64,000 nt of DNA, taken from assembly GCA_958298945.1 (NCBI GenBank), contig OY282610.1:27416167-27480166 (forward strand), in the 5' to 3' direction. Shown here one piece after another: positions 15,665 to 63,500 of the stretch (positions are counted from its first letter, which is position 1; the number at the start of each line of letters is the position of its first letter). The position numbers and the translations under genes are program-made. The notes below the pieces were generated by a model. The model saw only the letters and a list, made by a program, of their open reading frames with translations. It was not told the DNA's origin and made no database searches. The DNA comes from Atherix ibis. Taxonomy: Eukaryota; Arthropoda; Insecta; Diptera; Athericidae.

Positions 15665-18190
15665 AATATTAAATTAAAAAAATTTGCAATGACAACGAAT
15701 TCACGGAAATAAGTCCAAAATAGTTTATCGTTATTTTACGATATTTATAATTTTCTTAACAATTTTTAACGTCAAAACCTAAGATAACATTTTTTACAAT
15801 AATATGAAATGAAAGCTACTTAATATCAAGCAAAGTGATCGATATTTTACGATATTAAATATATTTTTAAATTTTTTGCTGCTAATCATGAGTTAATACA
15901 TAATTTTCTTAACCAAAAGATAATATTATTCAGAATAACAAGAAATTCATATTATTAAATCTAAAAACGATGATCGACTTTTTACGATATTTTTCAAATC
16001 CTTAGTTCTTACTAATCCTTAGTTTATGTGTACGTTTTTGGATCAATTGTTCATCTCCTAGATCCAAAATAACCGTTTTTGTAATAACAAAAAATTCAAT
16101 TCAATAAGTACTCAAATAGTTTATCGAAATTTTACGATATTCAACATATTTTTCTTTTGGCAACTTAAGCAGTATTCCAACTTAATTCTTTCAAATCAAT
16201 TTCTCATTGCCTAAAGAAAAAATATAACTTTTCATAATAACAAAAAATTCAAGTCAACAAGTCAAAAATATGTAATCGACGTTTTACGGTATACCAAATT
16301 GTTGGCCAATTTTTTCTACCAATTCTGTGTTAATGCATAATTTTCTTAACAAAGACAATATTTTTCACAGTAATAAAAAAACGTAGTTAATAAATCCAAA
16401 AAAATGATCGACTTTTTACGATATTCAAAAATATTTTAATTTTCTTTTATTTTTTAAATAATTTTTAATATCAAAATCTTAGAAAATAATTTTTATAAAA
16501 ATAAGAAAACATGTTAGTAAATCCAAAAAAAGTGATCGAATTTTTACGATATTGAGAAAAATTTTCAATATTTTTTAACAAACCCTTAATTAGTGTGTAA
16601 TTTTTTTAAACAGTTTTTAATATCAAAATCGAAGAAAATAATTTTTATAATGACAAAAAATTCAGGCTTAAAAATCCAAAATAAATTATCGACATTTTAC
16701 GATATTCAAAAGATTTTTGAATTTTTTGCTACTAATTGTGAGTGAGAACTTTAATTTTTCAACCAATTTGTCATCGGTTATAACAAAATAATACTTTTTA
16801 CAATAACAATAAATTCATGTCAATAAATCCAAAATAAAGTGATCGACTTTTTACGATATTTAGAAAAATTTTCAATATTTTCCAACAAACCCTTAATTAG
16901 TGCGTAATTTTTATAAACAGTTTTTAATATCAAAATTGAAGAAAATAATTTTTATTATTATTTTCAAAAAATTCAGGCTTAAAAATCCAAAATAAATTAT
17001 CGACATTTTACGATATTCAAAAGATTTTTGAATTTTTTGCTACTAATTGTGAGTGACAACGTTAATTTTTCAACCAATTTTTCATCGGTTATAACAAAAT
17101 AATACTTTTTACAATAACAATAAATTCATGTCAATAATTAGTGTGTAATTTTTATAAACAGTTTTTAATATCAAAATCGAAGAAAATAATTTTTATAATG
17201 ACAAGAAATTCAGGCTTATAAATCCAAAATAAATTATCGACATTTTACGATATTCAAAAGATTTTTGAATTTTTTGCTACTAATTGTGAGTGACAACGTT
17301 AATTTTTCAACCAATTTGTCATCGGTTATAACAAAATAATACTTTTTACAATAACAATAAATTCATGTTAATAAGTCCAAAAAAAGTGATCAACTTTTTA
17401 CGATATTCAGAAAAATTTTCAATATTTTTCAACAAACCCTTAATTAGTGTGTAATTTTTTTAAACAGTTTTTAATATCAAAATCGAAGAAAATAATTTTT
17501 ATAAAGACAAAAAATTCAGGCTTAAAAATCCAAAATAAATTATCGACATTTTACGATATTCAAAAGATTTTTGAATTTTTTGCTACTAATTGTGAGTGAC
17601 AACGTTAATTTTTCAACCAATTTGTCATCGGTTATAACAAAATAATACTTTTTACAATAACAATAAATTCATGTTAATAAGTCCAAAAAAAGTGATCAAC
17701 TTTTTACGATATTCAGAAAAATTTTCAATATTTTTCAACAAACCCTTAATTAGTGTGTAATTTTTTTAAACAGTTTTTAATATCAAAATCGAAGAAAATA
17801 ATTTTTATAAAGACAAAAAATTCAGGCTTAAAAATCCAAAATAAATTATCGACATTTTACGATATTCAAAAGATTTTTGAATTTTTTGCTACTAATTGTG
17901 AGTGACAACGTTAATTTTTCAACCAATTTGTCATCGGTTATAACAAAATAATACTTTTTACAATAACAATAAATTCATGTCAATAAATCCAAAATAAAGT
18001 GATCGACTTTTTACGATATTCAGGAAATTTTTTAAATTTTTCCCACTAATCCTTAGTTAAGCGTAATTTTTATAAATAGTGACAATAAATCATGCTGGTA
18101 AATCCCAAAAAAAAGTGATCGACATTTTACGATATTGAATTACAAAATAATCAATAATTTAGCATATTCAAAATATTTTCTAATTTCCTG
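15665..18190. repeat. Satellite with TTTTACGATATT core, ~153-bp unit
   Basis: Every unit contains (A)TCGAC-TTTTTACGATATTC or a variant. The GATATT landmark falls at 15740, 15851, 15986, 16136, 16289, 16420, 16549, 16701, 16855, 17012, 17249, 17402, 17555, 17708, 17861, 18015 and 18131. Early and late units are diverged and 111-157 bp long. Between 17249 and 17861 two 306-bp dimers (A-B-A-B, each 153+153) are nearly identical, showing recent higher-order amplification. The 237-bp step at 17012-17249 marks an unequal-exchange junction near 17138. Confidence 0.95.
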
Positions 18191-21924: not shown

Positions 21925-23210
21925 TAAGGTGTCGTAAAAAGTAATCCATTATTTTGCCAATAGATGGCTTTAGGAGTCTGTATATCCCGTTTTAAAAGTG
22001 CGATTGGGTTGCACTAGATAGCGTTAGAAAGATAAGATTTCGTACTAAAGAAGCCTTTCATACAGTTTTGTGATTACTTGACTCAGTATTTTTTTACCAC
22101 GCGTCAAAGATGGACACCAACAAAGAGAAAATACGCCATATTTTACAGTTTTTCTTCGATAAAGGCGAAAACGCAAGCCAGGCAGCTGAAAATGTGAATA
22201 GTATTTATGGTCCTGATACTGTAACAGCCAATCACGCGAATTTTGGTTTCGTCAATTCCGTTCCGGTAATTTTTATGTCAAAAATGCACCACGCTCTGGA
22301 AGGCCAATTGTCGAAAATGTCGATAAAATAATGGAAATTGTCGAGTCCGACCGTCATGTAAGCACTGTTTCGATTGTCCAGGAGCTAAACATTGCACACA
22401 AAACCGTTTGGAACCACTTAAATAAGGCTGGATACAAAAAGAAGCTCAATGTTTGGGTGCCACACGAGTTATCGCAAAAAACCTCATGGACCGAATTTCT
22501 ATCTGCGAATCGCTGCTGAATCGCAACAATATCGATCCATTTCTGAAGCGGATAGTTACTGGTGATGAAAAGTGGGTCACTCACGGCAACGTCAAGCGAC
22601 AACGGTCGGTGTCAAATCGCGGTCACCCGGCGCAAACGGTGGTCAAGCCAGGATTGATAGCCAGGAAGGTTTTGCTGTGTGTTTGGTGGGACTGGCAGGT
22701 AATCATCTACTATGAGCCGCTCCCCTACGGCCGAACTCTTAATTCGGACCTATACTATCAACAATTGGACCGTCTAAAAGAAGCAAACGCCCAGAAGCGG
22801 CCAGCTTTGGCCAATAGGAGTGGAATTGTGTTCCATCAGGACAACGCCAGGCCGCATACATCGATAGTGACTCGCCAGAAGTTCCGGGACCTTGGTTGGG
22901 ATGTTCTTATGCATCCACCTTATAGTCCGGACCTGGCTCCAAGTGATTACCATCTCTTCCTGTCTATGACGAATGATTTTGCAGGTGAAAAATTCGCCTT
23001 AAGAGAAAATTGTGAAAATCCACTGTCCCAATTTTTTGCCAGTAGGGACGAGGGTTTCTATGAGATAGGCATTATGAAATTACCTCCAAAATGGCAACAA
23101 GTTATCAAACGAAACGGTGCATATTTGACCTAAATCGTATCATTCTATCTATCCTAAATAAAACCTTCAATTTAATGCAAAAATAATGAATTTCTTTTTA
23201 CTACATCTTA
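21925..23210 (+). mobile_element. Full-length mariner element with TIRs and TA duplication
   Basis: The left end TAAGGTGTCGTAAAAAG (from 21925) and the reverse complement of the right end, TAAGATGTAGTAAAAAG (ending 23210), form inverted repeats of about 35 bp with a few mismatches. A TA dinucleotide flanks each side (21923-21924 and 23211-23212). The length of about 1.29 kb is typical of mariner. The transposase inside is frameshifted. Confidence 0.92.
22110..23133 (+). pseudogene. Mariner transposase, frameshifted
   Basis: Starts MDTNKEKIRHILQFFFDKGE, the usual N-terminal helix-turn-helix, then continues through VSIVQELNIAHKTVWNHL (second HTH) and WVPHELSQK. The catalytic triad is complete: TGDEKW, HQDNARPH and YSPDLAPSDYH, with 34 residues between the second and third Asp (D,D34D). 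At least two frameshifts, near 22290 and 22480, break it into three frames. Sequence style suggests the mellifera/irritans group, but the subfamily is not certain. Recent decay is likely because most residues remain readable. Confidence 0.93.
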
Positions 23211-29476: not shown

Positions 29477-29534
29477 ACTTTAATGTACGAAGAGCTCTTT
29501 TAGGTATATTTGAGAGTCCTTAACACCGCGCAAG

Positions 29535-30990
29535 TTTTTCTAGCAAGCGAGCTCAGCAAGGATGTCGAGTGAGTATGATAGATGATATACAGTATCATAA
29601 TTTAACAGGCGATATTATTGATCCTAAATCAAGGATCAGAATAAAGGATTATCAGTAGGTGATATGTTGAGTGACTATAATGGGTCAGGCAAAACTTCCC
29701 ATCTAAGCTGTAGTAACTTTTGACAAGTCTGCAATTTGATGTCCGGTATCATAATTTGACATCCGATGTCATTGATCCTTTAGCAAGGATCAGAATAAAG
29801 GGTTATGAGAAAGTAATATGTGTAGTGAGTATGATGAGTAGGGAAAAAACTTCCATCTAAGATGTATTAGCTTTTGCCGAGTCTGGAATTTGACGTCCGG
29901 TGTCATAATTTGACGTCCGGTTTCTTTGATCCTTCAGCAAGGATCAGAATAAAGTATTATCAGAAGATGATACGGTGGGGAAGTATGATGGGTAAGGCAA
30001 AATTTCCCATCTAAGCTGTAGTAACTTTTGACAAGTCTGGAATTTGATGTCCGGTATCATACTTTGACATCCGATGTCATTGATCCTTTAGCAAGGATCA
30101 GAATAAAGGGTTATGAGAAAGTAATATGTGTAGTGAGTATGATGAGTAGGGAAAAAACTTCCATCTAAGATGTAGCAATTTTTGCCGAGTCTGCAATTTG
30201 ACGTCCGCTGTTATAATTTAACGTCCAATGTCATTGATCCTTCAGGAAGGATCAGAATAAAGGGTTATCAGAAGGTGATATGACGAGTGAGTATGATGGT
30301 AAGGCAATATTTCCCATCTAAGCTGTAGTAACTTTTGACAAGTCTGGAATTTGATATTCGGTGTCATAATTTGACATCCGGTGTTATTGATCCTTCAGCA
30401 AGGATCAGAATAAAGTATTATCAGAAGATGATACGTTGGGGAAGTATGATGGGTCAAGCAAAATTTCCCATCTAAGCTGTAGTAACTTTTGACAAGTCTA
30501 GAATTTGACATCCGGTGTCATAATTTGACTTCCGGTTTCATTGATCCTTCAGCAAGGATCAGAATAAAGTATTATCAGAAGATGATACGTTGGGGAAGTA
30601 TGATGGGTCAGGCAAAATTTCCCATCTAAGCTGTAGTAACTTTTGACAAGTCTGCAATTTGATGTCCGGTGTCATAATTTGACATCCGATGTCATTGATC
30701 CTTTAGCAAGGATCAGAATAAAGGGTTATGAGAAAGTAATATGTGTAGTGAGTATGATGAGTAGGGAAAAAACTGCCATCTAAGATGTATTAGCTTTTGC
30801 CGAGTCTGGAATTTGATGTCCGGTGTCATGATTTGATATCCGATGTCATTGATCCTTCAGTAAGGATCAGAATAAAGGGTTATGAGAAGGTGATATGTTG
30901 GGTGAGTACGATGGGTGAGGCAAAACCTGCTATCGAAGTTGTAGTAACTTTTATCGAATCTGGAATTGCAATCCTTGAAAGGATCCATTC
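29535..30990. repeat. 154-bp tandem array with a hairpin in each unit
   Basis: The landmark GATCCTTCAGCAAGGATC falls at 29620, 29774, 29928, 30082, 30236, 30389, 30543, 30697 and 30851, giving a period of 154 bp (once 153). Each landmark is a 7-bp stem (GATCCTT/AAGGATC) with a 4-nt loop, CAGC or TAGC; the first is imperfect. Two unit types recur: one with AGAAAGTAATATGTGTAGTG and one with AGAAGATGATACGTTGGGG. 154 is not a multiple of three, so the array is not coding; the 98-residue frame at 30797-31093 is incidental. The array is unrelated to the satellite at 15.7-18.2 kb except in unit length. Confidence 0.95.
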
Positions 30991-31545
30991 GGGAACATAT
31001 GCTTTCGAGGGACGTTCATCATGGTACATTTCTGCCTATTCCATGAAATTTCCTGTATCAACATTATCACTTGGAAATTCTGGAATGATTTGAATGGCAG
31101 ATGCATGATCAAACCTTTGTAAATGTTACATAATGATTTCGTATATTTTATCTGACCATGTTATCTTCAGGAAGTATTTATCTTTTATTTCGTTAAGTAG
31201 CTTTTTATCTATGGAATTATTGATGTCATTCTAAAATTATTCTTCAGAATTCTAATTTTGTTTATCCTATCAAGAATATTGTGGGCCAACAAATACCCCG
31301 TTCGGGTTCTTTGTGAATGTTTATTTGATCTTTTCTAGATCGTAAAGAGTCTTTTTTTAAATTTCGCTATTAAAAATTGCAGTAATAATTAGTGCAGTCT
31401 TTAGGTGGAAGCCTATATTATATATATTCTTTTTATAATGTGGCCCCCATTTAAAAATTGAAAACAACAACAGAATGTCCATTTAAGTTATTTATTTAAT
31501 TCAAATATTTTTATTATACATATATTTTTTCCTTCATTATTATTA
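30991..31545. other. Spacer, no gene seen
   Basis: AT-rich sequence without recognised features between the array and the next mariner. Confidence 0.4.
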
Positions 31546-31548
31546 TTA

Positions 31549-32990
31549 CGAGGATCGTTCAATAAATCCTTAAAAAAAGATGGAAAAAAACTGTTTTTTT
31601 AAAAAAAATATAAAAAAAAACCATTGGTTTGGGCTTCATTGCATCAAGTCTGAACTGTTGATGACTTTAAAAATACGAGTATACTCCAGACGGATGGGTG
31701 AAAGTTCCAGAATTTTATGTACGAAGTTCGTTCAATTAGTACTTAGAAAAAGATGGAACAAACTGTTTTTAAAAAAAAAAAATTTTAATTTTCAACATAA
31801 GCTCTTTTTACCTCTGTGACCGTTTTTTCAAAGTTTTTATCCCGTCCAAAAAATAGGATTTCGGAAGTTCTGCAAAATACTCATCCGTTTGAGCAATGAC
31901 GTCCTCGTTGGAAGCGAACCGTCGTCCGCCAAGCCATTTCTTCAGATTGGGGAAAAGAAAATAGTCACTCGGGGCCAAATCTGGTGAATAAGCGGGATGC
32001 TGCAACAATTCCATTCTCAATTCCACAATTTTGGCCATGGAAACAGCGCAGGTGTGCACATGCGCATTGTCCTGATGCAAGAGGATTTTTTTCTTCTTCA
32101 GATGGGGGCGTTTCTCTTTGATTTCCTCGCTCAACCGTTGCAATAACGACGCGTAATACGCTCCTGTTATTGTTTTTCCTTTTTCCAAGTAGTCGATAAA
32201 AATTATGCCCTGCGAATCCCAAAAGAGGCAAGTTTTTGCCTTCTTCGGAGCCCGTTCACGCTTGAAAATCCACTGTGATGACTGTCTCTTCGTTTCTGGA
32301 GTGTAGTAGTGTATCCAGATTTCGTCCACAGTGACATATCGACGAAGGAATTCGGCAGGATTGCGATGAAAGAGTGCCAACATAGCCTCACAGTCCACTG
32401 CACGATTGCGCTTATTCTCCTCTGAGAGCAAACGCGGCACCCATCTTGCCGAAATTTTTTTCACAGACAATTTTTCATGCAAAATTGAAGCGACTATACC
32501 TTGTGATATGCCCGTGGCCTCAACTAATTCGCGCACTTTAATTCGTGGATCGTTCAAAATCAGATCGAGGATTTTGTCGATGATTTCAGGAGTAGACACC
32601 TCAACTGGGCGTCCTGAACGATGTTCATCTTTTGTGGATGAACGGCCACGTTAAAATTCATTCACCCAATTGTAAACCGTCGCAAACACAGGTGCAGATG
32701 TGCCATGAACTGCATCCAACTCGGCTTTGATTTCTTTCGGGCTTAAGCCTTTCAAATGGAGATGTTTGATGACAGCCCTAAACTCCCTTTTTTCTATTGT
32801 TATGCACAAATAAATATCGTTAGCTTTAATCGACGATAGAAATTGACCTACGCTATGGATCGAGCTGGCCTACGCTATGGATCGAGCTGACAGCTTTCCC
32901 GTTGATAATCCTACTTACAAAAAAAAAATCTTTACCGACACTACGAGCGCAATTTCTCGGATTTTCTAAGGACTTATTGAACGACCCTCG
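31549..32990 (-). mobile_element. CGAGG-type mariner, copy 1, with doubled left end
   Basis: The ends CGAGGATCGTTCAATAAATC (31549) and, on the other strand, CGAGGGTCGTTCAATAAGTC (from 32990) are inverted repeats flanked by TA on both sides. About 170 bp inside the left end there is a second TIR-like sequence, TACGAAGTTCGTTCAATTAG (near 31718), after a segment containing CCATTGGTTTGGGCTTC. This makes the element 1.44 kb instead of about 1.27 kb (copy 3). The same extra segment is in copy 2. Confidence 0.9.
31808..32797 (-). pseudogene. Mariner transposase, copy 1 (two lesions)
   Basis: The would-be start is ATA instead of ATG at 32797 (IEKREFRAVIKHLHLKGLS). Codon AAA of NEFKRGR has become TAA near 32653. 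From 32599 the frame is open: STPEIIDKI, EATGISQGIVASILHEKLSV (HTH), ARWVPRLLSEENKRNR, VTVDEIW (first Asp), LLHQDNAHVH (second), YSPDLAPSDYF (third, D34D). A 27-bp in-frame deletion after KKAKT removes nine residues that copy 3 keeps. The extreme C-terminus is replaced by KKRSQR through a frameshifting deletion. Inactive. Confidence 0.93.
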
Positions 32991-39550: not shown

Positions 39551-40172
39551 TTAAGCCTCAAATTATGAAAAAAAAACGCCGGTTTTCCATTGATATTTTA
39601 TTTTATATTTATTTCTAAAGCGTAAATTGGATAATTCATAATTTAATAAAAACATTTCTTCTTTAAGGTCATTTCTAGTAACATTTGTACAGAAATATAA
39701 ATTTTTATTGTTATAACAACTTAGGTTATTTAAAGATAATTAAAGAGAAATTGAGAAAAATTCAAAGTTTCATGATGAATTATTACATTTTTAATATAAT
39801 TAAGAATAATATGACATCAATCTGCCATGCAAAAGAAAACAGCTTGTAACTTGCAATCGCAGACCTTTTAAATGGGTTTCCTAGAAACATTTTATTGGTT
39901 CGTGTATTAAGTGAGCAAACCAATCTGAACTTACCGCTGTTTTGTTTTTGCTTTTCCTATCTTTTTTTTGCAAAAATCATTTCTGTTTAGTAATATTTGT
40001 ACCGAAAAAGGTTAAATTTTAGCACCACAATAACTCAGGCCATTTACAAACAACCAAAGGTAACCTACTCTGACCATGTCACTAGCTGGAGTTAAAATCA
40101 AGACTCCTTCGTACTAGATGGAGACGTCCCAATGTCGCTAGATGCTAGTAAAATATTACTGTTTTAAAGAAC
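39551..40172. other. Spacer, no gene seen
   Basis: No recognised feature. AAAGAAC at 40166-40172 may be the left target-site duplication of the LINE that follows. Confidence 0.4.
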
Positions 40173-41242
40173 AGCCCGCTCTATCTTCTCTTCGTTGACT
40201 TCGAAAGAGCCTTCGACATGATTTCTCGCGACGCCATCTGGAGTGCTCTGGCTGAACTAGGCATCCCGCAGGCCATAATCGATCTAATCCGAGAACTATA
40301 CCGCGAGGCCCCGTGTAGAGTGCGTCTCAAAGGACGAAACAGCGATACATTCAACATCTCGAGAGGAGTCAGGCAGGGTTGCATAATCTCGCCTATCCTC
40401 TTCATAATCGCCCTAGACCTAGTTCTTCAACGCACTAACAGCACAGCCAGCAACGGTATACAGTGGACACTGCGTGAGAAGCTCCACGACCTGGACTACG
40501 CCGACGACATATGCCTCATGTCCCACACCTTCAACGGCATTCAGGAGAAACTGAATGCACTGGCCTCCAACGCAGAAAAAGTTGGGATGAGAATCAACAT
40601 CAAGAAGACCAAATTGATGCGTGTCGGCGCCACCTGCGAGAGACCCTTGATGCTACACGGTACCCAAGTTGAAGATGTCGAAAAGTTCTGTTACCTTGGC
40701 AGCATGCTCAGCAAGGATGGTGGAACTGAAATAGACATCCAAACGCTCATCAACAAGGCGCGACAAGCGTACACCTCACTTGGGAACGTATGGCGTTCCA
40801 ATCATCTCTCCATAGCACTCAAACTTCGAATATTCAACTCAAACGTCAAGCCAGTCCTGCTGTACGGCTGCGAAACATGGAAAGTAACAGACAGCACGAC
40901 TCGTAAGCCTCAGGCATTTGTGAACAGATGCTTGAGGCGCATAAGCAAGATCTTCTGGCCGAACTGGATAACGAACGATGAGCTGCTTCTTCTCACGAAG
41001 CAAATACCCCTGCTAGATAACATCAAACGCGAAAACCACCTACGGACATAGCAAGGATGGCCCTAGATTGGAACCCACAGGGCAATCGCAGCAGAGGACG
41101 TCCAAGGACCACTTGGAGAAGATCAGTCGAGCGCGAACACCAACAAACTGGCAAATCATGGTCGGAAGTAAAAAGGCTGGCTCAAGACAGAAGCAGATGG
41201 AGAGAGTTCACAGAGGCTCTAGTGCCGCTATATGCTCCATAG
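40173..41242 (+). pseudogene. LINE reverse transcriptase, 5' truncated, one frameshift
   Basis: Frame from 40173: SPLYLLFVDFERAFDMISRD (palm, first catalytic Asp), then SRGVRQGCIISPILFIIALD, then HDLDYADDICLMSHTF with an intact YADD catalytic pair, then GMRINIKKTKLM, FCYLGSMLSKDGGTEIDI, LRIFNSNVKPVLLYGCETWK and FVNRCLRRISKIFW. It stops at 41051. After a shift, ALDWNPQGNRSRGRPRTTWR and VPLYAP-stop follow to 41242. The second part is the usual C-terminus of this endonuclease-type LINE group; some 15 residues seem deleted at the junction. The clade is not certain from sight. Confidence 0.92.
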
Positions 41243-41311
41243 GAGTGACTGTGTTCTCATGTCTATGTGTAACATAGAAATGAAAACCTGTCAAATAAAA
41301 AAAAAAAAAAA
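40173..41311 (+). mobile_element. 5'-truncated LINE with 3' UTR and poly(A)
   Basis: The copy begins inside the reverse transcriptase and ends with a 3' UTR and an A-run of 18 or more bases (about 41297-41314). AAAGAAC occurs at both edges (40166-40172 and 41312-41318), a possible 7-bp target-site duplication, although the A-run makes the right side ambiguous. The reading frame is almost intact and much richer in GC than its surroundings, so insertion is recent compared with other elements here. Confidence 0.9.
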
Positions 41312-41319
41312 AAAGAACA

Positions 41320-46165: not shown

Positions 46166-46199
46166 AACCGAATTAAATAAAACTACGTCCTCAAAATTT

Positions 46200-47527
46200 A
46201 AAAAAAAAACCATTGGTTTGGGCTTCATTGCATCAAGTCTGAACTGTTGATGACTTTAAAAATACGAGTATACTCCAGACGGATGGGTGAAAGTTCCAGA
46301 ATTTTATGTACGAAGTTCGTTCAATTAGTACTTAGAAAAAGATGGAACAAACTGTTTTTTTAAAAAAATATTTTAATTATCAACATAATCGCTTTTTAGC
46401 TCTGTGACCGTTTTTCCAAAGTTTTTATCCTGTCCAAAAAATAGGATTTCGGAAGTTCTGCAAAATACTCATCCGTTTGAGCAATGACATCCTCGTTGGA
46501 AGCGAACCGTCGTCCGCCAAGCCATTTCTTCAGATTGGGGAAAAGAAAATAGTCACTCGGGGCCAAATCTGGTGAATAAGCGGGATGCTGCAGCAATTCC
46601 ATTCTCAATTCCACAATTTTGGCCATGGAAACAGCGCAGGTGTGCACACGCGCATTGTCCTGATGCAAGAGGATTTTTTTCTTCTTCAGATGGGGGCGTT
46701 TCTCTTTGATTTCCTCGCTCAACCGTTGCAATAACGACGTGTAATACGCTCCTGTTATTGTTTTTCCTTTTTCCAAGTAGTCGATAAAAATGATGCCCTG
46801 CGAATCCCAAAAGAGGCAAGTTTTTGCCTTCTTCGGAGCCCGTTCACCCTTGAAAATCCACTGTGATGACTGTTTCTTCGTTTCTGGAGTGTAGTAGTGT
46901 ATCCAGGTTTCGTCCACAGTGACATATCGACGAAGGAATTCGGCAGGATTGCGATGAAAGAGTGCCAACATAGCCTCAGAGTCCACTGCTGCACGATTGC
47001 GCTTATTCTCCTCTGAGAGCAAACGCGGCACCCATCTTGCCGACATTTTTTTCACAGACAATTTTTCATGCAAAATTGAAGCGACTTTACCTTGTGATAT
47101 GCCCGTGGCCTCAACTAATTCGCGCACTTTAATTCGCAGATCGTTCAAAATCAGATCGTGGATTTTGTCGATGATTTCAGGAGTAGACACCTCAACTGGG
47201 CGTCCTGAAAGATGTTCATATTTTGTGGATGAACGGCCACGTTTAAATCCATTCACCCAATTGTAAACCGTCGCAAATACAGGTGCAGATGTGCGATGAA
47301 CTGCATCTAACTCGGCTTTGATTTCTTTCGGGCTTAAGCCTTTCAAATGGAGATGTTTGATGACAGCCCTAAACTCGCTTTTTTCCATTATTATGCACAA
47401 ATAAATGTCGTTAACTTTAATCGACGATAGAAATTGACCTACGCTATGGATCCTGTCAATAATGCTACTTACAAAAAAAAAATCTTTACCGACATTACGA
47501 GCGCAATTTCTCGGATTTTCGAAGGAC
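46200..47527 (-). mobile_element. CGAGG-type mariner, copy 2, both outer ends lost
   Basis: Similarity to copy 1 begins at the CCATTGGTTTGGGCTTC segment (46210) and includes the inner TIR-like TACGAAGTTCGTTCAATTAG (46309). The outer left TIR is absent. On the right, the match stops within the TIR after GGATTTTCGAAGGAC (47527). Without both ends the copy should not move. Confidence 0.9.
46396..47388 (-). CDS. Mariner transposase, copy 2 (330 codons open)
   Basis: ATG at 47388 starts MEKSEFRAVIKHLHLKGLSP; the upstream open codons to 47607 are not part of the family. Domains: paired HTH (residues ~1-110, including GRPVEV near 68), WVPRLLSEENKRNR linker, catalytic core with VTVDETW, LLHQDNARVH and YSPDLAPSDYF, spacing D34D, all three Asp present. 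It shares with copy 1 the nine-residue deletion after KKAKT, in the core just after the first Asp. The C-terminus ends early at EKRSQS because of a frameshifting deletion that removes about 15 terminal residues. It is the only long open copy here; activity is doubtful because of the two deletions. Confidence 0.9.
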   Translation of the reverse strand: MEKSEFRAVIKHLHLKGLSPKEIKAELDAVHRTSAPVFATVYNWVNGFKRGRSSTKYEHLSGRPVEVSTPEIIDKIHDLILNDLRIKVRELVEATGISQGKVASILHEKLSVKKMSARWVPRLLSEENKRNRAAVDSEAMLALFHRNPAEFLRRYVTVDETWIHYYTPETKKQSSQWIFKGERAPKKAKTCLFWDSQGIIFIDYLEKGKTITGAYYTSLLQRLSEEIKEKRPHLKKKKILLHQDNARVHTCAVSMAKIVELRMELLQHPAYSPDLAPSDYFLFPNLKKWLGGRRFASNEDVIAQTDEYFAELPKSYFLDRIKTLEKRSQS

Positions 47528-47529
47528 AT

Positions 47530-47700
47530 AAAATAAGAATATACTACGTCCGTCGAAGTGCAGGAGAAAGAATGCTGTCGAAAGCAGTAGCGCCAACCGG
47601 AAGGCAAGGTAGTAGCGCGATTATGATTTGGGGTTGGCTCTCTGTTTTGTTGCCAATTGGAGGAATTTTAATAAAAGAAGAGCATCTAAATATTTTTTGA
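47530..47700 (+). pseudogene. Tc1-like transposase, middle fragment
   Basis: YVRRSAGERMLSKAVAPTGR followed by SSAIMIWGWLSV and GGILIKEEHLNIF matches the Tc1 core around the GGGSxMVWGxFS motif and the following GIM...Y..IL. The N-terminal part lies at 46.0-46.16 kb on the same strand, so copy 2 of the CGAGG mariner has interrupted a Tc1-like element. Confidence 0.65.
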
Positions 47701-54051: not shown

Positions 54052-55322
54052 CGAGGGTCGTTCAATAAGTCCTTAGAAAAAGGTGGGAAAAAACTGTTTT
54101 AAAAAAAATTTTTTTTTATTATTCAACATAATATCCTTTTAGCTCTCTACAATTATCCAACCGTTTTTCCAAAATAGGATTTCGGAAGTTCTGCAAAATA
54201 CTCATCCGTTTGAGCAATGACGTCCTCGTTGGAAGTGAACCGTCGTCAGCCAAGCCATTTCTTCATATTGAGGAAAAGAAAATAGTCACTCGGGGCCAAA
54301 TCTGGTGAATAAGCGGAATGCTGCAACAATTCCATTCTCAATTTCACAATTTTGACCATGGAAACAGCGCAGGTGTGCACACGCTCATTGTCCTGATGCA
54401 AGAGGGTTTTTTTCTTCTTCAGATGGGGGCGTTTCTCTTTGATTTCCTCGCTCAACCGTTGCAATAACGACGCGTTATACGATCCTGTTGTTGTTTTTTC
54501 TTTTTCCAAGTAGTCCATAAAAATGATGCCCTGCGAATCCCAAAAGACCGTGGCCATCACCTTGCCGGCCGATGGCACAGTTTTTGCCTTCTTCGGAGCC
54601 CGTTCACCCTTGAAAATCCACTGTGATGACTGTCTCTTCGTTTCTGGAGTGTAGAAGTGTATCCATGTTTCGTCCACAGTGACATATCGACGAAGGAATT
54701 CGGCAGGATTGCGATGAAAGAGTGCCAACATAGCCTCAGAGTCCACTACACGATTGCGCTTATTCTCCTCTGAGAGCAAACGCGGCACCCATCTTGCCGA
54801 AATTTTTTTCACATACAATTTTTCATACAAAATTGAACCGACTGTACCTTGTGATATGCTCGTGGCCTCAACTAATTCGCGCACTTTAATTCGCAGATCG
54901 TTCAAAATCAGATCGTGGATTTTGTCGATGATTTCAGGAGTAGACACCTCAACTGGGCGTCCTGAACGATGTTCATCTTTTGTGGATGATCGGCCACGTT
55001 AAAATTCATTCACCCAATTGTAAACCATCGCAAATACAGGTGCAGATGTGCCATGAACTGCATCCAACTCGGCTTTGATTTCTTTCGGGCTTAAGCCTTT
55101 CAAATGGAGATGTTTGATGACAGCCCTAAACTCGCTTTTTTCCATTGTTATGCACAAATAAATGTCGTTAAACTTAATCGACGATAGAAATTGACCTACG
55201 TTATGGATCGAGCTGAAATTTTGACAGCTTTCCTGTCTATAATGGTAATTACAAAAAAAATCTTTACTGACACGACGAGCGCAATTTCTCGGATTTTCTA
55301 AGGACTTATTGAACGACCCTCG
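54052..55322 (-). mobile_element. CGAGG-type mariner, copy 3, full length
   Basis: CGAGGGTCGTTCAATAAGTC at 54052 and the same sequence in reverse at the right end (55322) form near-perfect TIRs, each flanked by TA. At 1271 bp the element has the normal size and lacks the extra left segment found in copies 1 and 2. Confidence 0.95.
54119..55145 (-). pseudogene. Mariner transposase, copy 3 (stops)
   Basis: ATG at 55145 starts MEKSEFRAVIKHLHLKGLSP. NEF is followed by TAA instead of AAA near 55001, the same nonsense change as in copy 1. The open part (from 54947) holds EATSISQGTVGSILYEKL, VTVDETW, KKAKTVPSAGKVMATVFWD (the segment deleted in copies 1 and 2), LLHQDNERVH and YSPDLAPSDYF. GGA of WLGGRR has become TGA near 54246, and a deletion with frameshift follows near 54165. 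The C-terminus ELKGYYVE is kept. Confidence 0.93.
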
Positions 55323-57716: not shown

Positions 57717-57796
57717 CTATAGAAGAAGAAGAAGAAGAAGAAGAAGAAGAAAAAATATAAAAATAAAAACAAAAGAAATCAAAAAGAATATTTTAC

Positions 57797-58328
57797 CTTC
57801 GATAACAGCAAAATAATGCAATACGCCATATTATAGCGATAATACTAGCTATTGCTAGAAATGCATACCAAAACCATAGAAAAGTGTAAATTTTCTCATT
57901 AATTATATTCAATGCCATAACACAGAGTGCATCGTGTAATTGTATAGATCCACCTGAACCATATTTATAAAAATGGCATTTGGTCATCTTGGGAAAGACC
58001 ACATCCAAAGCATCAACATTTTTGCCCCAATCCTCTTTGGCAACTTTTATTCCCAAATCATAAAATTGACCAGCCAAAAATAAATTGGTTATGTAAATTT
58101 GTAATAGAACATTAAGAAAATTTAGTATTTCACAAAAGAACATCATTAGTCCCCAGAATTTGTTAATTTCCAGCCGATTTATAAATGCCATTTTAATTGA
58201 CGATAGACGATTCTCCATTAAATTTTTGCTTGGAAATAGCTTCTCCCCAATTTTCAAATTACTTTCTTCCAAATAACGCGAGATTTTTATCATATGCAAA
58301 CCGTTGACAAGAGATCTAATTTGTCCAC
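57797..58328 (-). CDS. Inx7: Innexin 7-like gap-junction subunit, internal exon
   Basis: Innexins are four-helix membrane proteins forming invertebrate gap junctions. This 532-base exon encodes about 177 residues: GGQIRSLVNGLHMIKISRYL (cytoplasmic loop), ENRLSSIKMAFINRLEINKF, third membrane helix (FWGLMMFFCEILNFLNVLLQ, residues ~58-82), second extracellular loop with FPKMTKCHFYKYGSGGSIQL and two Cys, and fourth helix (NIINEKIYTFLWFWYAFL, ~150-175). LHDALCVMALNIINEKIY best fits innexin 7. The acceptor is TTTTAAG before 58328 and the donor GTAAAA after 57797; no lesions. The 5' exons (N-terminus, helices 1 and 2) are not in the window, so they lie beyond 64,000 or I missed them. A 1.1-kb LINE copy sits in the intron to the right. 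Confidence 0.93.
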
Positions 58329-58474
58329 CTTAAAAGAAAAAATAATTGTTAAAAAAAATTTATTGATCTAAAAATTTAAAAAATTTTTTTATCGAATTTG
58401 TAAAAAATTAAACAGTTTTCATATAAAATTTACACTTTCATAGAAATTATTTTCTACACTAATAAAAATAAAAG
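58329..58474. other. Innexin intron, AT-rich
   Basis: Intronic sequence between the exon acceptor and the LINE copy. Nothing else seen. Confidence 0.6.
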
Positions 58475-58486
58475 TATTTAAATACT
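58475..58486. repeat. Left target-site duplication
   Basis: TATTTAAATACT, identical to 59600-59611. It lies next to the poly(A) end of the minus-strand LINE copy. Confidence 0.9.
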
Positions 58487-58576
58487 TTTTTTTTTTTTTT
58501 ATCTGACTGGTTTCATTTCTACATTATACAGGCGCTCCTATGGAGCATATAGCGGCACAGAGAATACACGTCTCTA
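58487..58576 (-). other. LINE 3' end: C-terminal codons, 3' UTR, poly(A)
   Basis: The reverse complement contains GTGCCGCTATATGCTCCATA, encoding VPLYAP-stop, and then a 3' UTR about 20 bases shorter than that of the 41.2-kb copy because of an internal deletion. The terminal A-run is about 14 bases. Confidence 0.88.
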
Positions 58577-58849
58577 ACAGTTCGGCTAAAAAGTTTATAA
58601 GGTTGACATCTAGATGGCGCCTCTTGCAAAAATCTTAATTATCACAAAGCATCATCCTTCAAATGATTCCTGTAAAAATTTGACAGCAATCGGTCGATTG
58701 GTTCGTGAGATATAGCATTTTGAGTGAAGCAACTTTTGTTATTGAAAAAAAAATGGATAAAGACGAATTTCGTGTATTGATAAAGCATTGCTTTTTGATG
58801 AAAAAAAATACAGTGGAAACCAAAGCATGGTGTGACAAACGTTATCCGG
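58577..58849 (+). pseudogene. Mariner 5' end fragment inside the LINE
   Basis: From ACAGTTCGGCTAAAAAG (58577, after a TA) through an untranslated leader to ATG at 58753, then MDKDEFRVLIKHCFLMKKNT and VETKAWCDKRYP, the N-terminal helix-turn-helix of a SETMAR-like mariner transposase. It breaks off at about 58849, where the LINE endonuclease begins on the opposite strand. Only about 32 residues of the transposase remain. Confidence 0.78.
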
Positions 58850-59260
58850 TGGTAGAAGGCTTCTTTTTTGTTGGCGTCATCATCTATAACTTCGGTTGGG
58901 GCATAGCACTGCACGATGGTGATGTTTCGGAACTTCGAGTGGAGCCTGGCTGTCAGAAGGCGGTCGGAGACCGGTTTGTAGCCCATTAGAGATCTCTTTT
59001 TGCGTTGGCCGATAGGATCAATCCGACTCCACAGTGGTGGCCGCTGTCGTTGCCGCTGTAGATGAAGTTTTCCACCCGTCTGCGTTGTGAGGGCTCCCTT
59101 GGATGTTTCCACCTTGTCTCGGAGATTCCCAGGATGTCGAGGTTGTAAGCGTTTTTGGGAGAGAAGCCAGTCGAGAAGTTTTTGGGAGAGAGTCCCGCAC
59201 GTTCCAGGTACCTATTCGGGCTGTTCGATGAAAACCAGATGAGTTTTTTGCCTGAGGTAC
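58850..59260 (-). pseudogene. LINE AP-endonuclease domain
   Basis: Minus-strand codons in order: ARIGTWNVRDSL (N-terminal motif with catalytic Asn), YNLDILGISETRW (catalytic Glu), HHCGVGLILSANAKRDL, then GYKPVSDRLLTARLHSKFRN and ITIVQCYAPTEV. These are blocks of the APE-type endonuclease of LINEs, which nicks the target DNA. At least two frameshifts and a stop separate them; only the first half of the domain is present, and His-containing C-terminal motifs are missing. The last frame runs on into the antisense mariner, giving a chimeric 156-codon ORF (58642-59112). Confidence 0.88.
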
Positions 59261-59417
59261 GGTCCGGTTGACTCTTCTTGTGCTGTTTCTTGATAAGGTG
59301 GTTTTTATAGCTTGCGGCTTATCAGGCCAGCGAAGTAACCTCCAGTGACGTTGGGAGACCCTACGGACTACATATAAGGCTTTGCAGTCGGCTTCTCACC
59401 CCGGCACCCTGCCGAGA

Positions 59418-59464
59418 TGGCGGCAGCGGGAATCGAACCCGCTACCTACCGAGTGTGAGTCGGT
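59418..59464 (-). ncRNA. tRNA-Val(CAC)-like 3' half in LINE head
   Basis: The minus strand folds exactly like the 3' half of a tRNA. Anticodon arm: ACCGA, loop CTCACAC, TCGGT (59464-59448; anticodon CAC, Val). A 5-nt variable loop AGGTA follows. T arm: GCGGG, loop TTCGATT, CCCGC (59442-59426). Then come seven bases like an acceptor strand. GGTTCGATTCC matches the RNA polymerase III B box. No D arm or 5' acceptor strand is present, so it is not a functional tRNA; the 5S-like sequence takes the place of the 5' half. Confidence 0.8.
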
Positions 59465-59484
59465 CGACACACACACGGTTAAAC

Positions 59485-59598
59485 CTGCGGCACGCGGTGT
59501 TTCCAAGCGTTCACCCATCCAAGTACTAACCACGCCCACTCCTGCTTAACTTCGGTGATCAGACGAGAACCGGTGGATCCAGGACGGCACAGCCGCAG
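59485..59598 (-). ncRNA. 5S rRNA-like sequence at the LINE 5' end
   Basis: The 114-nt minus-strand stretch resembles 5S rRNA from end to end. Recognisable blocks are GGTTCTCGTCTGATCACCGA, AGTTAAGCAG (A box region) and GTGGTTAGTACTTGGATGGG (intermediate element and C box), then GAACGCTTGG and ACACCGCGTG. The first seven bases CTGCGGC pair perfectly with the last seven GCCGCAG, as helix I of 5S rRNA does. No T-run follows, so it is not a free-standing 5S gene; it leads into the tRNA-like part. It starts one base from the target-site duplication. Confidence 0.88.
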
Positions 59599-59599
59599 A

Positions 59600-59611
59600 T
59601 ATTTAAATACT
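59600..59611. repeat. Right target-site duplication
   Basis: TATTTAAATACT, abutting the 5S-like 5' end of the LINE copy; identical to 58475-58486. Confidence 0.9.
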
Positions 59612-60060
59612 AATTAGTAAAATTTTGAATTTTTTTAATAGCATATCTTCAATCAGATTAGAGGGTATTAAAAGTGTTCACAATTTTTTCGAGTAAAAAT
59701 TCTTACATTTCATAAAAGAAAACTTTTCATATCAAAAAAAAATCTTATTAATTTTGATAAACATTTAAAAAAGAAACTTTCAAACTATTATCAAAAAATT
59801 TTAACAAAATTTTAAGCGGATAAGAATTTTTTTTTTGCTTTAGAAAAAAGAACACTTGGAAATTTTATACAGGTATGTATCTAGTACACAGTGGTCTTGA
59901 GTTCAAATCCAGCTAGTATGTTAATTTTGCTTGATTTATGAATAATTATGTTAATTTGTTAATTAACATACTATCCAGCTAGTATGTTAATTTTGCTTGA
60001 AAAGAAGCTTGATTTATGAATAATTGAAATTACTTGAAATAAAAAAACTACCAAAAATTG
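59612..60060. other. Probable innexin intron
   Basis: AT-rich. TCCAGCTAGTATGTTAATTT occurs twice (59910 and 59974), a local duplication. No exon recognised. Confidence 0.45.
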
Positions 60061-60960
60061 TCTCGACAAAACAGCGGTAAGTCCAAATTGGTTTCCTTAC
60101 TTAATCGAAACCAATGAAAAGCTTCTTCTAATTTCAGTAAAAAATATTGAGCTAGAATTATAAGTAAAATTCACTTTCTCTTTGAAGGAGGGGGGAAGGG
60201 GGAAAGATTGGCTTATGTTAGGTGGTTTTCTTATAAAATCCTTTGCTAATTGCAAAGTTCAAACCCAATTAGTGCCAAGCCAAATCACAAATCACCTTTC
60301 TTTATTTCTAATTTAGGGGTCTGTGCTGTTATGGCACTAAGAATTTTAAGTTCAGTACAAATGTTATTAACTAGAAATAATTTGAAAAAAAAGATGAAAG
60401 AAGCGAAAATTGCCTCAACAAAGCAGCGGTAAGTCCAAATTGGTTTGCTTACTTAATGAAAATTAATAAAAAGCTTCTTCTAAATTCAGTAAAAAAATGC
60501 TGGAATTGCAAGTAAAATTCACTTTATATTTGATAGAGGGGGGAACGGGGGAAAGGTTGGCTTACGTTACGTGTTTTCGATCAAAATCTATCATTATTCT
60601 TAATTATGTAAAAAATATATTGTAGTAATTCGACACGAAATTGACGAAGTTTCGTCAACAATGTAATTTCGATTTTTATGTCCACATTTGAACATATTGA
60701 TATGATTGCGTCTAGTTCACAGCAGTCTCGAGTTCAAATTCTGCTAGTGACGTAGCCAAGATCGTCTTAGTTGTCATCAAAAAATGGTGGTAATATTTTT
60801 TTTTTTAGTATAAATTATTTTAAAAGTGTATTAAAAATTGTCTCAACAAAACGGCGGTAAGTCCAAATTGGTTTGCTCAAAACCAATGAGAAGCTTCTTC
60901 TAAGTTCACTAAAAAATTCTAGAATTTACAATAAAACCAACTTTTTCTTTAGGGTAGGAA
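60060..60960. repeat. Tandem repeat with AACAGCGGTAAGTCCAAATT core, first block
   Basis: Units begin at about 60072, 60424 and 60852. Each contains CAGCGGTAAGTCCAAATTGG, GCTTCTTCTAA-TTCAGTAAAAA, an AAAATTCACTTT segment and a G-rich block such as AGGGGGGAACGGGGGAAAG. Spacings are 352 and 428 bp. The short plus frame at 60250-60432 lies within the repeats and is not a gene. Confidence 0.82.
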
Positions 60961-62330
60961 GAAGACGGTTGACTTTAAAAACATTGACTTACGATCAAAA
61001 TCTACAGCCACCCTTAATTATTTTAAAATTATGCTTTTTCATTATGAAAATTTCAATTTTCCATACAAGTAAGAATAATTTAAGTAGAAAAAAATCGAAT
61101 TTAACAAAAAAGGTTTCTGAAAGTCCAAACTTTTGAATATCGACAATAAAATTGACAAAATTATATGCATTCAATTCTAAAGAAAACATAAATTGAATTT
61201 TCATTGACTTTTTTTTTTAATATTTTTTTTTTTTTTCAATATTTAAAGCAGAGAACTTTTGCCCATTTTATATGTAAAAATTATATTTTTGTGCACAAAA
61301 GTTCGGTGAGAGAGATTGAAAAACTGAAAATTCAAAATACAAAATCGCATATGATAGGACGGTATGCACACCTGTACAATTTAATTTGAAAGATGAAAAT
61401 GAAAAAATAAAAATAATTTTTGAAACAAATGAGCTCCTCTTTCTTTGGATAGTGTACGTGCCTTCCATACTGAGATCGTTCGCAGAAAATGTCTTTGATG
61501 TTATTCCAGGTAAATCACAGCACTATGCGCGGCATGCAAATATGACTATGAGCTGCGTCCAAATATTTAGACTCGGTTATATCTGTCTGAAGTTGGAGCA
61601 AATGATTCACACGAGCCCATATATTCTGACCATTCCAGTAACCAACCCCACACTATCTAAATTTTTAAAAAAGATTCCGGTGCCATATCATGCTATACAG
61701 ATCGCTATGGTGATGGCCGTGTCTCTGTTTAAGACCTGAAAACCAGTCGAATCTGGTATCAGAAGACAAACTCGAAATCGCATGACAAAGGCACACAACT
61801 GCCCAATAGTATTGTAGATAGACTTTACCAAAAAAAACGTGCAAAGCCAAAAAAAAAACAGGCCTGATGAAAATACCTGTCAGCGGAGGTGGCGACGGTG
61901 GTCATTAAACTTATGAGAAATGTCGGAAAAAATCGCGCCCGTCTATGCGATAATATTCGCAAATTATGTTAATGACTTTTGTGACATCATCGCAGTGGCA
62001 TGAAAATGAAATTTCCGTTTAGCTTTTATTCATTTAGTCAAGTTTTTTTTTTATTGTTCGACAGCCTAGCTTAATCAAAAACTAAACGCCATATGCGGTT
62101 TTTTTCTGCACACAAAATAAATGGAAAATACCGACTAGCACTCATTATGGAATTTACCCAAAATATGTGTGATGCGATAATTTCTATTTTAAATCTTGAT
62201 ATTGTCACAATTTTGTATCCTCAAAGGAATCTCAGTGTCTTCATTAATAGCTAAATCCGAAATAAAGGCGGGTAAGTTAGTTAAAAGGAAAATTCAGCTA
62301 TCACTAAAAGTAGAATTAAGTTGAAGAAAC
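60961..62330. other. Interruption of the repeat block
   Basis: Non-repetitive sequence, more complex at 61,430-61,960. The 117-residue frame 61386-61739 has no domain I recognise. It could be inserted DNA, or an exon of an unknown gene. Confidence 0.3.
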
Positions 62331-63500
62331 ATAATAAAAGAAGTGAAAATGGTCTAAACAAAAATGCGGTAAGTTCAAATTGGTTTGCTTACTTAATCGA
62401 AACCTATAAAAAGCTTCTTCTAAGTTCAGTAAAAATATTAGAATTGCTAGTAAAATTCATTTTCTCTTTAAAGGAGGGGTGGGGGGAAGGGGAAAAGTTG
62501 GCTTATGTAAGGTGGTTTTCTATCAAAATCCTTTGCTAATCGCACAGTTCAAACCCAATTAGTGACATAGCCAAATCACAAATCACCTTCCCTTATTTGT
62601 CACTTAGGGACCTGTGTTGTTAAGTTCAGTACAAATTTTACTAATTAGAAATGATTTGAAGGAAAAAAAAATAAATAACAGAAGCAAAAATTGTCTCAAC
62701 TAAACAGCGGTAAGTTCAAATTGGTTAGTTCACTTCATTAGACTGAATAAGAACCTTTTTATAACCCAGTAAAAAGTGTTTGTGTTGCACGTTAATTTTA
62801 TTTTTTTCTTTGCATGGAGAATCCGGGTAAGTTGTTGAGTTTAGATCAGTAATGTAGGAAGAAATATATTTGTCCATCATAAAATTATGATTTTTTTGTG
62901 ATTTTCTGTACTTATTACAATGGTTGTGCCATAATTTAGCGACACTCAGGACTCTTTTGTTCAAATCCAGCTAGTTACATAGATGAGATGCCCTTTAGTA
63001 GTCGCTCAATGGTCGCTAAGCATTAACATTTTATTGTAAATATTACTAATTATTAAAAATTATTGAAAAAAAATTAAAAGCAACGAAAATTGTCTCCACA
63101 ACATAGCGGTAAGTTCAAATTGGTTAGCTCACTTCATCTTAGCCAATAAAAAGCGTTATTAATGAGTTTTCTTTAGAGGGATAGGGGGGGAGGGTTGGGT
63201 AGTAAAGTTATTTTTGCCATAAAACTTTAGAATTTTTCTCAAAGCTTACAAGATCTATACTTTGATTAAGCGACATTCAGCACTCTTTTTAATCTAGCTA
63301 GTGGCATAAGCTCTTTAGTTATTACCCAAGGGCCCTGAGTTGTTATGGCGCTGTAAATTTATATTTTAGTACAAATATTATTAAATCAAATTTACTTTTT
63401 CAAAAAGGAAAAATGTATGCGATAAAACAGCGGTAAGTTCAAATTGGTTAGCTCACTTAATCCGATAGCATTTACGCTACTTTTCTTTCAATGGAAAAAG
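62331..63500. repeat. Tandem repeat with GCGGTAAGTTCAAATTGG core, second block
   Basis: Units near 62365, 62704, 63105 and 63430 (spacings about 339, 400 and 325 bp). Compared with the first block the core reads GTTC rather than GTCC. G-rich segments AGGGGTGGGGGGAAGGGG (62474) and GGATAGGGGGGGAGGG (63178) recur at the same relative place. Confidence 0.82.

Follow-up and report, generated by a model that had tools for sequence, protein, structure and literature searches.

What kind of retroelement begins with a 5S rRNA-like sequence, continues with a tRNA-like sequence and then runs into a LINE? Such an arrangement is found on the minus strand of a stretch of 64,000 nt from the dipteran Atherix ibis (contig OY282610.1), referred to here as the window. 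A first-pass annotation, made from the sequence alone, had read it as a protein-coding LINE headed by a 5S/tRNA chimera. The interpretation that we lean towards, although only slightly on balance, is that of one decayed copy of a non-autonomous SINE-like retroelement, in which a head of 5S and tRNA-like parts sits on a bipartite RTE-like LINE body whose middle is missing. The features of the element, in window coordinates, are as follows.

58475..58486, no strand: target-site duplication, copy at the poly(A) end (TATTTAAATACT)
58486..58500, minus: A15 tail, with one base in common with the duplication
58501..58575, minus: LINE 3′ end, consisting of the last codons and the 3′ UTR, in common with 41,217-41,311
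58,538-58,558, minus: the codons VPLYAP-stop, by translation, also present in the LINE copy at 40 kb
58578..58849, plus: 5′ end of a mariner-type transposon (leader and ~32 codons), cut off on its 3′ side; borders approximate
58850..59417, minus: LINE 5′ part, in which ~200 nt precede the N-terminal portion of an APE-type endonuclease
59418..59488, minus: tRNA-like stretch, with anticodon arm, T arm with B box, and 3′ acceptor side
59,429-59,439, minus: B box, exact (GGTTCGATTCC)
59482..59600, minus: 5S rRNA-like head, full length (Rfam RF00001, model positions 1-120 of 120)
59,511-59,527, minus: 5S box C core, exact motif match
59,544-59,553, minus: 5S box A, exact motif match (GAAGTTAAGC)
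59600..59611, no strand: target-site duplication, copy at the 5S end (TATTTAAATACT)

Read on the minus strand, the 5S-like head, the tRNA-like stretch, the LINE 5′ part, the mariner piece, the LINE 3′ end and A15 follow one another within one 12-bp target-site duplication. With the mariner left out, they form a single retrotransposed unit with a size of ~840 nt. The first-pass annotation had reported a perfect 12-bp duplication around the unit, and this is upheld: TATTTAAATACT occurs twice on the plus strand of the window, at 58,475-58,486 and 59,600-59,611, i.e., at both borders. A border match of at least 12 bases was obtained for a fraction of 0.00012 (about 1.2e-4) of 200,000 random position pairs, which were drawn from window positions 10,000-63,000 with a slop of at most 3 bases per border; pairs less than 200 bases apart were skipped, yet are counted in the divisor. 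One copy of the duplication is flush against the A15 run and the other against the first base of the 5S-like sequence. Thus the head belongs to the retrotransposed unit, as had been proposed. The single base that had been placed between the duplication and the 5S is not there by the Rfam borders, position 59,600 being shared by the two.

It is very improbable that a LINE fragment and a 5S/tRNA SINE were inserted here independently of each other, with the 12-bp match arising by chance. The duplication does lie in AT-rich, partly palindromic DNA. However the anchored match has the low chance given above, the one duplication is flush with both the 5S start and the poly(A), and no A tail is visible between the head and the LINE part.

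Outside of the duplication, the element is adjoined by an innexin coding stretch at 57793-58329 (minus strand; PF00876, E 2.5e-46). There are 98 related proteins, and the one that carries an organism name is inx7 of the beetle Asbolus verrucosus. Six 92-nt repeats with the common core GCGGTAAGTYCAAATTGGTT are spread over 3.4 kb at 60034-63481. Further away are two tandem arrays, at 16510-17969 and 29529-31059, with spacings of mostly 153-154 bp, and a tandem array that extends from 213 to beyond 1517 in a 16-base register, with 41 overlapping family members.

The 5S identity of the head is well defined. In an Rfam scan of the whole window, RF00001 matches 59,600-59,482 on the minus strand with 95.6 bits (E 1.7e-19), the one 5S match in 64 kb. 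The identity given earlier therefore stands, and the length is corrected from 114 nt to 119 nt by the Rfam borders. None of the 9 pairs of the closing stem is flagged as non-standard in the Rfam alignment. The free-energy fold of the 5S stretch alone is a different fold, with a z of -1.46 and with 16 of 200 shuffles as good. A genuine 5S gene cluster was considered and rejected, as the 5S is a lone one and is enclosed by a LINE tail and a duplication. Box A and the box C core were located by their 5S motif definitions. Two traits of SINE3 elements are present, a 5S rRNA-derived head at the extreme 5′ end of the element, and a sequence that is non-coding, without an RT match and with its endonuclease split over three frames.

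The tRNA-like stretch follows the 5S head and overlaps it by a few bases. Its D arm and A box are unrecognisable, and a motif search of the stretch for the type-2 (tRNA) A-box pattern gave no match. The tRNA model RF00005 aligns with 59,488-59,418 at 24.8 bits (E 0.86, whole-window scan), under the gathering score of 29. An Rfam scan of 231 bases around the stretch gave no plain tRNA row. What it did list is the T arm, as a match to tmRNA, which belongs to the clan of tRNA (14.3 bits, E 4.4e-4). At 59,402-59,481 there is a match to a viral tRNA-like family (E 0.88), and the opposite strand has one to a plastid leader family (E 0.1); all three are below gathering. The fold of the stretch beats 200 of 200 shuffles, with a z of -5.0, and the B box is exact. 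The earlier description, of a B box within the 3′ half of a tRNA-like fold, is a fair one. These features of the sequence suggest, with moderate confidence, a tRNA origin for the stretch behind the 5S. A real tRNA gene was rejected as a candidate: ARAGORN found 0 tRNA genes, and the A box was not found.

Behind the head are ~570 nt of LINE 5′ sequence in which pieces of the endonuclease lie in three frames. When joined with X, the pieces match P0121 (PF03372) over 98%, at an identity of 41% (E 1.1e-16); of the 48 candidates for this joined query, 2 were below E 1e-3. Without joining, P0121 matches 58,998-58,834 (E 1.2e-12) and P0122 matches 59,013-58,843 (E 2.2e-11). In Pfam the joined query scores 13.8 bits (E 0.049), which is below the cut-off of 24.5, and no Pfam endonuclease family was found in the two single endonuclease pieces. 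The APE endonuclease frame of the first-pass annotation is confirmed as endonuclease sequence by the P0121 match, but it is not a single frame. In this decayed copy there is no ATG between the frame with which the endonuclease opens and the stop before it. Neither the frames nor the protein matches between the duplications revealed an RT, and the element has no intact endonuclease-RT frame, a trait of autonomous LINEs. The description as a protein-coding LINE is not supported: no RT was found, the endonuclease is broken over three frames and only the two LINE ends are kept.

The tail of the element leads to a second LINE in the window, its likely partner, which has the following features.

40174..41311, plus: likely partner LINE, 5′-truncated copy with RT, C-terminus, the same 3′ tail and poly(A)
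40,166-40,173 and 41,312-41,319: candidate 8-bp duplication of this LINE (AAAGAACA)

The LINE 3′ end of the element aligns with 41,217-41,311 over 95 columns (74.7% with gaps, E 1.2e-11). The claim of LINE 3′ codons and a poly(A) is borne out, with VPLYAP-stop in both elements and the A15 run. The copy at 40 kb displays RVT_1 (2.9e-24) and DUF6451 (3.9e-13), and its C-terminal frame matches P0002 and P0033. Relatives of its RT that are named, among 120 of 255, include Batillaria, Elysia and Apolygus. The partner LINE may belong to the RTE clade; the assignment as RTE-like is loosely supported, by broad protein matches rather than by a tree with named clades. The 8-bp duplication is weak, as the same scan gave one other chance 8-mer match in the scanned stretch. 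This locus (40,173-41,311) is the second place that had been named earlier; it is a LINE only, with no 5S/tRNA head. As the copy is 5′-truncated, it is uninformative on the head. In the headed element itself the LINE 5′ and 3′ ends are present and the middle is absent, which is the bipartite composition. The two ends may well derive from one LINE family, of which the copy at 40 kb does not retain the 5′ part.

A separate observation concerns P0001, an RT that is 74% identical to that of the window's LINE. The contig that carries it has 717 bases and bears the label Citrobacter sp. MH181794. This contig is probably insect DNA in a bacterial assembly.

Between the endonuclease and the tail lies the mariner piece of ~275 bp, which runs on the strand opposite to the element and was absent from the first-pass annotation. 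The 32 codons that start at 58,753 agree with the mariner at 46,399-47,667 in 13 of 28 residues. Taken as a single comparison this has an E of 3e-5, and 0 of 5000 shuffles scored equally well. A Pfam search with these 32 residues alone found no family. The 3′ side of the piece is missing where the endonuclease begins. A mariner fragment as the body of the element was tried and dropped, since the fragment points the other way, is incomplete at one side and contains T5-T9 runs. Other mariners are present in the window. Three minus-strand copies, at 31604-32697, 46193-47288 and 54088-55045, are 67-97% alike over the ungapped 182-300-nt stretches listed, and Transposase_1 was detected in both copies that were scanned, of the three. 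Another mariner-type transposase frame is on the plus strand at 22426-23133 (Transposase_1, E 2.5e-17).

The SINE-like reading is favoured by the complete 5S head that abuts the duplication, by the 5S box A, the box C core and the tRNA B box, all of them exact, by the two LINE ends with no RT match between them, and by the 3′ tail held in common with an RT-coding LINE copy in the same window. Published elements of like layout also speak for it (PMC3272025, PMC7245038, PMC4844689). Against it are the single copy seen, the size without mariner, which is long for a SINE, and a middle that was possibly lost after insertion. As a SINE-like element, its RNA would be transcribed by Pol III from the 5S start by way of internal elements in the head; the head may function as a Pol III promoter, judging by its promoter motifs. 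The protein of a partner LINE would then recognise the common 3′ tail and copy the RNA by target-primed reverse transcription. A mariner may have inserted into the copy after the element's own insertion, and a later deletion would have taken the 3′ side of the mariner together with adjoining sequence.

Pol III stops at T runs. The head and LINE 5′ part together (749 nt) contain one T4 run and none longer, versus 0.94 T4 runs expected from mononucleotide shuffles. As this count is at the level of the shuffles, it permits Pol III transcription but is no proof of it. In the mariner piece (276 nt) there are five runs of T5 to T9; Pol III would terminate at these, and thus the mariner most likely arrived after the insertion of the element. 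With the mariner in reverse orientation to the element, the present order would result from one deletion over its 3′ side and the neighbouring LINE. That deletion could have removed either the whole endonuclease-RT middle or little of an already bipartite body.

A deletion of this kind could also be accommodated by a different origin, from a full-length autonomous LINE that itself begins with the 5S/tRNA chimera and of which the element is a copy with an internal deletion. A single deletion from the endonuclease into a mariner near the LINE 3′ end would produce the present order, and with the mariner reversed and without its 3′ side, the LINE middle and the mariner end could have been removed together. 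Over the 1,117 nt of 40,174-41,290, the copy at 40 kb is free of T4 runs and is in principle readable by Pol III; however, 24% of shuffles are also without a T4 run. The window shows no full-length copy with a head, there is no ATG between the frame that opens the endonuclease and the preceding stop, and the known precedents, in the parts of the reports that describe them, are non-autonomous (PMC7245038, PMC4844689). An origin from such a full-length LINE is considered unlikely. The broader proposal is that the host has an autonomous endonuclease-RT LINE lineage whose 5′ end is itself a Pol III promoter of hybrid 5S/tRNA type, with 5S box A and C and a tRNA B box, and that the present copy is a member of it that has undergone an internal deletion. 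This is distinctly unlikely.

Further copies were sought in collections of viral, phage, plasmid and prokaryote DNA, which are poor places for insect repeats, and no relative of the element was found there. A blastn search of plasmids and phages gave no match to the element. In viral_contigs the patterns for the head, the 5S C-box and the tRNA part each gave 0 stretches, and those for the RT, P0121 and the RT alignment gave 4, 16 and 5 stretches, none of which was confirmed; the 15-base tail pattern gave 31 stretches. In genome_contigs the head pattern gave 2 stretches, both titled bacteria and with no Rfam match up to E 0.5. When the headed element and the LINE copy were compared by blastn with 33 loci, 73 matches up to E 10 were obtained, all of 26 bases or fewer. 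The best of these (E 0.002 and 0.006) are sited where the search patterns had been placed and are taken as chance.

A third origin bears on the joining of the head to the LINE. During a single insertion, the RT of a LINE could have copied the LINE RNA to its end and then continued on a small RNA of 5S/tRNA type or on a SINE RNA, so that the element would be a one-off chimera and not a member of any family. The single copy seen in the window agrees with this, and L1 chimeras with 5S rRNA or tRNA, within duplications, have been published for human (PMC13174262). As with the element described here, a small RNA is joined to a LINE inside one duplication. The duplications are of 7-17 bp in 20 of 27 5S cases and of 9-19 bp in the eight tRNA cases that were checked (PMC13174262). 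However, in the cases as that report presents them, the chimeras are single events whose small-RNA parts are typically truncated and antisense, whereas the 5S here is full length and sense. In addition, the LINE middle is also missing, for which a further event would be needed. A one-off origin is thus regarded as rather unlikely.

Several known SINEs resemble the element, and the SINE-like reading is best judged by comparison with them. Bird SINEs that are mobilised by AviRTE have bodies that combine a portion of the 5′ UTR with the complete 3′ UTR, and differing heads (PMC4844689). One of these, GymnSINE, is non-autonomous and has a head derived from 5S rRNA on an AviRTE body (PMC4844689). 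It is similar to the present element in that a 5S-derived promoter head precedes a body to which an RTE LINE contributes its 5′ and 3′ regions. It differs in its bird host and its UTR-only body, and no tRNA part is mentioned in the portion of the paper concerned with it; the LINE part of the element described here extends into endonuclease codons. Bipartite RTE-derived SINEs with tRNA or 5S heads are also described (PMC7245038, citing Kojima 2018). Their construction principle is the same, although a combined 5S and tRNA head is unmentioned in the relevant section (PMC7245038), and the present element has a long coding remnant.

An insect comparison is HaSE3 of Helicoverpa, which has a 5S head and an RTE-LINE-like 3′ end, and whose body and tail are in common with those of the tRNA SINE HaSE1 (PMC3272025). 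Host class, 5S head and RTE-like 3′ end are thus alike. In the account of HaSE3 no tRNA stretch is described behind the 5S, and its partner HaRTE1.1 ends in TGA repeats, whereas the element here ends in a poly(A) (PMC3272025). Another SINE from the same report, HaSE2, has a mariner-derived 3′ region; in the element here the mariner piece is internal (PMC3272025). With its tRNA-like stretch behind the 5S, the head resembles that of AmnSINE1 of vertebrates, in which a 5S-derived promoter is followed by a tRNA-derived region, in a 570-bp consensus (PMC3234267). However AmnSINE1 has a Deu-domain and its own 3′ tail, and no LINE 5′ part is named in its description there (PMC3234267).

The first-pass annotation knew of no described case. 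This does not hold for the general layout, which is that of GymnSINE (PMC4844689) and the bipartite RTE SINEs (PMC7245038). In the open-licence literature, as far as it was covered, we noticed neither an autonomous LINE with a 5S or tRNA head nor a 5S and tRNA-like head with a LINE part that reaches into the endonuclease. Thus, by the sources cited, the layout is already in print, and what is unusual is the combination of a 5S and tRNA-like head on a bipartite body and the reach of that body into the endonuclease.

If the element belongs to a family, it would provide an insect example in which 5S and tRNA-like parts head a bipartite LINE body, and the length of its LINE part could reveal a possible intermediate on the way from a LINE to a short SINE. 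Full-length copies with the head, if they exist, would constitute a LINE that starts in the Pol III manner, which would be truly surprising since non-LTR retrotransposons are described as transcribed by Pol II (PMC10886601). In comparison with the systems above, the element fits the known helper-dependent kind better than a new protein-coding kind.
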